44,928 nt of DNA, taken from Candidatus Fermentibacterota bacterium (GTDB lineage Bacteria; Fermentibacterota; Fermentibacteria; Fermentibacterales; JCC-6). The notes under the pieces are model-generated. The model had not been told where the DNA came from. It saw only the letters and a list, made by a program, of their open reading frames with translations, and did not search any database. The translations under genes and the position numbers were made by a program. Below are positions 17,529 to 19,430 of the stretch, in pieces (position 1 is the stretch's first letter; each line of letters begins with the position of its first letter). Location: contig QNDR01000008.1 of assembly GCA_003646025.1 (NCBI GenBank), positions 1 to 44,928 of the forward strand, in the 5' to 3' direction.

Positions 17529-17734
17529 GGAGCGTGTCTGACAATAAGCGCTGAGCAGTTACGCCGCAGGATCGAGCCGGAATACGTGCGGATTTGAAGA
17601 TAAAAGCAACTTGAGTAGTAGCGAGGGCGTCCCGAGCGGAAGCACGGATAGCAACGCTATTTAATGATAATACGCGCGTGCTGTGGCCGATTATGTGGAT
17701 GTAGATGCCAGTGTACTATTCTCGGACATGCTCC
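17529..17734 (+). mobile_element. MITE-like element copy A (206 bp)
   Basis: Ends GGAGCGTGTCTGACAATA ... TATTCTCGGACATGCTCC (rc GGAGCATGTCCGAGAATA); shares TTGAGTAGTAGCG, ATAGCAxCGCTATTT, GATAATxCGCGCG with copy B; no ORF. Confidence 0.65.
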
Positions 17735-17977: not shown

Positions 17978-18054
<77 letters not shown>

Positions 18055-18104
18055 GAACGAATGAAAAGCATAAAGATCGGAACTTAGAGGCTCTACACCA
18101 AAAG

Positions 18105-18190
18105 TGGGGGCAGTTTCGGTGCAGTACGATCAGAAAAGCGCCTTTCAAGATCCCCATGTCCGAGCTGTTAAAGCGCCGGAATGCCCCCAT
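18105..18190. repeat. Imperfect inverted repeat pair, ~86 bp apart end to end
   Basis: TGGGGGCAGTTTCGGTGC (18105-18122) versus GCGCCGGAATGCCCCCAT (18173-18190). Confidence 0.4.
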
Positions 18191-18405
18191 GGAAACTCGG
18201 GATATGTAGCGATAATGAATTCGCTTCCAGTGCCACCTCCACCCAGGTATGGTTCCCACATCGATATATCGTCACTGACCATGCTGTGTGGAACGGCAGG
18301 AGCTACAACATCGGCAGTAGACACAACACGAACGAACGCAAAATTTACTGGTGCGGAGACGCTGCAAGCAGCGGGAAATTGAACCCTCCTCTGGATTTAA
18401 ACTGG

Positions 18406-18980
18406 TTAGTAGAGAGTAGAGTCCGTGATAGTGGTGTACGAAGGTCTGTCTTTCCGGAACTCTGATTCCTGACCGCTCTGCCAGATCAAGAACGATTGCT
18501 TCCCAGACGATTCGGTTATGGTCATCAACATTGTCAGGAAATTTAGCGATATAGAGCTGGGAGTCTTTATGTACTGATGCTTTTGGCTGAGCACCCCCAG
18601 AAAAGAACCGGGAGCAAGAAGTAACCTGAGATCTTCATTTGATTCTTCTTCCTTCAACAGTCTATCTGAAGCTGCGAGCAGTCCTGGCAATTCAACCAGA
18701 GGAGGGATACTGATTTCAGTGCTTTGTGCGAGGAATGGACCACCCTCTGCCAGGGAAAACCTCAGAGCACCCATACGGGTTTCATTGTTTACCCCAAGCA
18801 GGTAATCAATTTCCCTTAATGTGCGAGGAGTTCTGCCTTCTGCTTTATCAACCCTTCGAGTAAATCGTCGCATAAGAAGTCGACCCCATCTATCAGGAGC
18901 AGAATCCCCGATTGCACCAAAAATTGATAAACCAGTTCCTGTATGGTACGGTCCCTTCCTGGCTGACAAAGCTGGTTCCA
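18406..18980 (-). pseudogene. hipA-family kinase remnant, 5'-truncated, frameshifted, 3'-truncated
   Basis: LEPALSARKGPYHTGTGLSIFGAIGDSAPDRWGRLLMRR...TLREIDYLLGVNNETRMGALRFS...LLLAPGSFLG, then homology resumes in another frame as GAQPKASVHKDSQLYIAKFPDNVDDHNRIVWEAIVLDLAERSGIRVPERQTF after the 5-C run at 18594-18598. Confidence 0.85.
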
Positions 18981-19141
18981 GGAGCTTGTCCGGAAATAGG
19001 TATTGAGTAGTAGCGCCTCACGGACGAGATGGAAAGCGTGTCGATTGGAGAAGAATAGCAGCGCTATTTGACGATAATCGGCGCGCTTTGCAGCCGTTCG
19101 TGCGGTGTCTAATGCCGATGTTGTATTTTCGGTCAGGCTCC
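18981..19141 (+). mobile_element. MITE-like element copy B (161 bp), between hipB and hipA remnants
   Basis: TIRs GGAGCTTGTCCGGAAATA and rc of TATTTTCGGTCAGGCTCC; internal hairpin AATAGC-AGC-GCTATT; shared core with copy A. Confidence 0.65.
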
Positions 19142-19204
19142 TAGTTTTCGCAGAACTCTTAGAACTGGAATCGGCCTCCTGGTACCACGCCTTTGATAAT
19201 CCAT
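19133..19204 (-). pseudogene. hipB-like HTH antitoxin remnant (N-terminal 23 codons only)
   Basis: ATG at 19204 reads MDYQRRGTRRPIPVLRVLRKLGA then stop inside the element's terminal repeat; resembles N-terminus of HipB-type antitoxins. Confidence 0.6.
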
Positions 19205-19227
19205 AGTAAGTATCCTTAGTGTCAAAT

Positions 19228-19241
19228 ATAGTATATACTAT
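19228..19241. promoter_or_regulatory. 14 bp perfect palindrome upstream of hipB remnant (candidate operator)
   Basis: ATAGTATATACTAT, 24 bp upstream of the hipB-like ATG. Confidence 0.45.
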
Positions 19242-19430
19242 TGAGCATAATGTAAAGTATATTTATCCTAAAAGCGAGAGTAGTACTCCCCGAACATCAC
19301 AACAGGATTCCGGAAGTATCCACTATAGAGTGTCCGGATACAGATCCAGGAGATATTGCAGGCACATTATGCTGGATAATCTGCAAAAATATCCTTCAGA
19401 CAAAACAGGGAAGCAGTATATCTGAGTCTC

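Follow-up and report, generated by a model that had tools for sequence, protein, structure and literature searches.

Type II toxin-antitoxin modules of the HipBA kind combine the kinase HipA (PF07804) with the helix-turn-helix (HTH) repressor HipB (PF01381). The locus described here lies in a 44,928-nt stretch of Candidatus Fermentibacterota DNA, called the window below, and its ortholog in a relative shares both domains and the hipB-hipA order, while the window copy is a pseudogene from which the greater part of hipB and the two ends of hipA are gone. The repeat at its breakpoint also has described counterparts. Fold-back MITEs of prokaryotes include ERIC/IRU, Correia/NEMIS and the pneumococcal RUP/BOX elements (PMC10969869, PMC2229807, PMC3049150). 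As far as the excerpts drawn on here portray such elements, the repeat resembles them: it is short and non-coding, its termini are inverted repeats, it makes short target duplications, it occurs between genes in many copies, and it forms a hairpin over its full length. Different from the same families as outlined there, it has the termini GAGC...GCTC, a fixed length of 158-160 bp, no Rfam match and, among PF01609 hits, no autonomous partner. IS5-type insertion sequences produce 4-bp CTAR-like target duplications, which the repeat's duplications CTAA, CTAG and CTTG at empty sites resemble. In contrast to IS5-type elements, no transposase bearing the repeat's ends was found: around none of the 29 hits in the genus to PF01609, the transposase family used, do two element ends lie close together.

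Three-frame translation of positions 18100-19260 located the two remnants. On the minus strand, a HipB-like start, MDYQRRGTRRPIPVLRVLRKLGA, begins at 19204 and terminates within the element, and a HipA-like reading picks up at LLEPALSARKGPYHTG, from 18984 downward, so that an initial annotation describing a HipB-like N-terminus that runs into one element terminus and HipA homology that resumes at the other was borne out on both sides. The hipB piece had been given there as 23 codons. It is indeed a HipB N-terminus that matches the HipB of relatives, but its final two codons (GA) are element sequence, which leaves approximately 21 native ones. A second HipA piece, SGGAQPKASVHKDSQLYIAKFPDN, is read in a different frame from the first. 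The features are collected in the table.

Features of the decayed hipBA locus and its surroundings (window coordinates)
Feature	Position	Strand	Basis or remark
204-bp variant of the repeat family, presumably "element A"	17530..17733	+	shared with G024; absent from G031, G032 and G026
tRNA-Arg (TCT), left border of the debris interval	17978..18054	+	ARAGORN
Truncated second copy of the repeat, 3' part	18304..18342	-	85% identical; ~0.6 kb from element B
~33-bp genus-dispersed sequence, GTAGAGTCCGTGATAGTGGTGTACGAAGGTC	18415..18447	+	adjoins truncated hipA
hipA remnant	18449..18981	-	HipA residues ~48-227 of 416; frameshift; both ends gone
Left flanking tetranucleotide CCAG	18978..18981	.	in register with hipA
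Complete fold-back MITE ("element B"), GAGC...GCTC, 159 bp	18982..19140	+	repeat searches, covariance model
Right flanking tetranucleotide CTAG	19141..19144	.	in register with hipB, Leu-Gly codons
hipB remnant	19141..19204	-	~21 native N-terminal codons; alignment to relatives
Region upstream of hipB, homologous to the ortholog	19205..19280	-	alignment

When the genomes of the family were searched with the first HipA piece, several relatives gave strong matches. The best was a 422-codon open frame, 84% identical, in G023, a Candidatus Sabulitectum genome of the same genus as the window genome within Candidatus Fermentibacterota. The G023 locus (L004) has an intact hipB-hipA order, with a HipB beginning MDYQKHGTKRPIPVLRVLRKLGEDIKDARRRRR / MDYQKHGTKRPIPVLRVLRKLGEDIKDARRRRRLPMSLVAERAGVSRVTLAKLEKG and a HipA some 416 aa long, and its products carry HipA_C (E 1.1e-41, positions 1-210 of 213) and HTH_3 (E 9.6e-7) in Pfam. 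Several further genomes of the family also hold intact pairs. The comparison with related genomes that had been recommended thus found hipBA whole and free of the element in the relatives read; element-derived sequence is not coding in these intact orthologs, and HipB similarity of the short remnant, on which the annotation depended, was recovered.

Alignment to L004 defined the loss at base level. Window positions 18449-18981 correspond to L004 1345-1878 with 85% identity over 534 nt, and 19138-19280, comprising the hipB start and its upstream region, correspond to L004 2302-2444 with 78% identity over 143 nt. The 423 bp in between (L004 1879-2301), encoding hipB from codon ~22 onward together with some 47 codons of hipA, have no counterpart in the window, where 156 bp replace them, and the intact element at 18982-19140, with both ends (GAGCNTGTCCGA) complete, fills the gap exactly. 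The remaining part of hipB and the N-terminus of hipA had been reported as missing, and the absent segment falls precisely at the element. In an assembly of ~90% completeness, which limits such searches, the C-terminal part of HipB was not found (best match 30% identity, E 0.026), and HipA residues 1-47 and 228-416 returned distant paralogs of 28-33% identity or nothing; the remaining HipA-like matches, on contigs 77 and 114, are paralogs in the same identity range.

Chance similarity is excluded for both genes, the HipA pieces giving E values of about 1e-67 and 2e-24 when the genome was searched with HipA, and the DNA on the hipB side matching L004 with E = 1e-29. The profile search that had been proposed succeeded in part: the second HipA piece matched PF07804 (HipA_C, positions 4-58 of 213) with 32.2 bits against a cut-off of 30.5, but neither the short hipB remnant nor the first of the hipA pieces had a match in Pfam or NCBIfam, so their orthology was drawn from the relatives, and the first hipA piece had no match in a PDB sequence search. 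Accordingly, of a HipBA module the locus retains a recognisable part of the HipA kinase C-terminal domain, without a complete catalytic kinase domain, and upstream of it about 21 codons of the HTH antitoxin HipB without a domain match. The locus is destroyed, as had been stated, and further than had been noticed, since hipA is also frameshifted by a 1-nt deletion near 18596 (translation and alignment to L004) and truncated a second time at 18448/18449, where homology stops and the C-terminal kinase half (residues 228-416) is missing. No functional HipA or HipB can come from it. Differences from the ortholog fall at third codon positions in 35 of 59 and 15 of 18 cases in the two hipA pieces, and the loss is therefore recent, the gene having been constrained until recently.

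The element itself is a non-autonomous fold-back MITE. It is short and non-coding, has terminal inverted repeats and is present in many copies; BLAST found 30 matches in the window genome, many of them at contig ends, and a covariance model found 33. The model detected the repeat in 26 of 36 genomes of the family, in two of five genera, and the unit length stays at 158-160 bp across these two Fermentibacterota genera; the 204-bp longer form also occurs at places other than the one in the table. One genome of the second genus (G003) holds 59 model matches, a recent expansion. Of 19 copies examined with a simple ORF test, none falls within an ORF. Mobility follows from three copies whose matching site is empty in G024, the closest relative, where filled and empty sites define the 4-bp duplications CTAA, CTAG and CTTG; at two of these three loci the two copies of the duplication are no longer identical, one of them having changed. 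Across copies the right tetranucleotide is mostly CTAG or CTAA and equals the native site wherever an empty site is known, and the left one varies (CCAG, CGAG, TTAG, CAAG), a pattern that might point to alteration of the left flank by transposition.

Taken together, the window holds a dead hipBA locus in which the element probably caused the deletion of 423 bp. The absent segment, the intact element fitted between native flanks, the frameshift, the second truncation and the lack of the lost parts elsewhere in the assembly are shown by the sequence, and the causal role of the element is inferred. In this reading a hipBA module settled between the tRNA-Arg and a sigma-factor gene; the remainder of hipB and the hipA N-terminus were then lost in connection with the fold-back MITE, hipA gained its frameshift, and its 3' part disappeared beside the probable end of another mobile element. 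Two routes to the 423-bp loss may be envisaged, namely recombination between two copies in the same direction, one in hipB and one in hipA, or an aberrant transposition that removed adjacent DNA. Both routes would leave what is seen, a pair of intact element ends with native hipA on one side and native hipB on the other, and recombination between copies is slightly favoured. Deletion through recombination between copies has been documented for insertion sequences in the part of the literature drawn on (PMC8692435). Two insertions into one module are plausible here, given the filled and empty sites at three loci and the many copies, and the second, decayed copy 0.6 kb away was counted in favour of an element-caused deletion. 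Among the relatives read, none carries one or two copies of the element in an intact hipBA, so no intermediate was seen. The initial annotation had offered insertion followed by deletion, or replacement by the element, which is the right class of event, either form being compatible with the data.

The order of events could also have been the reverse, a chance deletion first bringing hipB and hipA together and the MITE then inserting where they meet. CCAG and CTAG, which are identical but for one base, resemble a 4-bp target duplication in slight decay, as at other copies and as expected of ordinary single insertions, and one clean insertion (L030 compared with G024) likewise has a T-to-C change in one duplicated copy. 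However, such an insertion must have struck the exact junction by chance, and the joined bases must suit hipA and hipB alike, in register, which makes this order improbable; the flanking tetranucleotides are not decisive on it. A deletion caused by the element is favoured over this order. Still less probable is a chimeric assembly through the repeat that collapsed two copies or joined two loci. Many draft contigs end inside the repeat and 100 bp of the element are exactly common to another copy, but this shared core is enclosed by bases private to the window copy, at 18994 and 19103, the lost hipBA pieces are on no other contig, and the sequences on the two sides come from a single gene pair, in correct order and orientation. 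That the remnant still works, say as a shortened HipA or a peptide with a regulatory role, is scarcely credible: a 187-codon frame is open and the differences are mostly at third positions, yet HipB, the HipA N-terminus and the C-terminal kinase half are all gone and the frame is shifted. The locus is read as an ordinary case of pseudogenisation, in which an element of a known kind has struck a toxin-antitoxin module of a known type. Its value is that of a clean base-level case, in which the breakpoint of a toxin-antitoxin loss is occupied precisely by a small non-autonomous element and intact relatives are available for comparison; a live system would have mattered more than a decayed locus.

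The surroundings of the locus are themselves variable. Between the tRNA-Arg and the upstream region of the sigma-factor gene, four relatives (G031, G032, G027 and G026) have tens of bases, whereas the window genome has 1.37 kb inserted there. G024, whose sigma factor is 98% identical, has 323 bp of other sequence in the same interval, including an IS3-like OrfA fragment read by eye. The differing mobile-element debris in these two genomes, against tens of bp in relatives (window positions 18055-19426 compared with L072, L074, L075, L076 and L078), marks the interval as a site that collects debris, an insertion hot spot. The hipBA genes of G023 are located elsewhere, and hipBA presumably reached the tRNA-Arg/sigma-factor interval as a mobile module. 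Beside the second hipA breakpoint stands the 33-bp sequence, which is found between genes throughout the genus (L047-L054, L094, L095) and is probably an insertion-sequence terminus.

The structure of the repeat appears to be maintained. The window copy folds, as DNA, into a single hairpin of full length (z = -5.4), and over 17 copies from the genus pairing is kept in 95.9% of paired cells, with changes on both sides in 10 pairs. The hairpin structure fitted these 17 copies far better than slid registers; the shuffle controls ignore relatedness. When 20 copies from the second genus were aligned with two from the first, compensatory changes were present in 19 of 56 pairs. Predicted RNA energies are asymmetric between strands. 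In the first genus one strand gives -58 to -92 kcal/mol and its complement -34 to -51; in the second genus the two ranges are -67 to -86 and -34 to -62. A strand test on variants alone gave G.T in 18 columns and A.C in 11, which is not significant (p = 0.26), and columns with a G.T majority (9, against 0 for A.C) are suggestive, though the chosen structure itself accounts for part of this excess.

Compensatory changes and strand asymmetry suggest that the RNA is constrained but fall short of proof; the arms of a palindromic transposon can also stay alike in other ways. Selection on the RNA of the repeat in addition to its DNA, which would make it a mobile RNA hairpin such as a transcript stabiliser, an attenuator or a processing site rather than plain junk, is offered as a tentative and rather doubtful reading. 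Literature searches on Sabulitectum, on repeats of Fermentibacteria and on hairpin compensation in MITEs retrieved nothing, and this hairpin-MITE family of a little-studied phylum is apparently undescribed. The family deserves more attention than the locus, as it apparently lacks a description, breaks draft assemblies and has a structure conserved through paired changes. In the draft genome, contigs 9, 17, 18, 24, 33, 69, 113, 115 and 117 end in the repeat at nearly the same internal position, and the repeat thus fragments the draft assembly.
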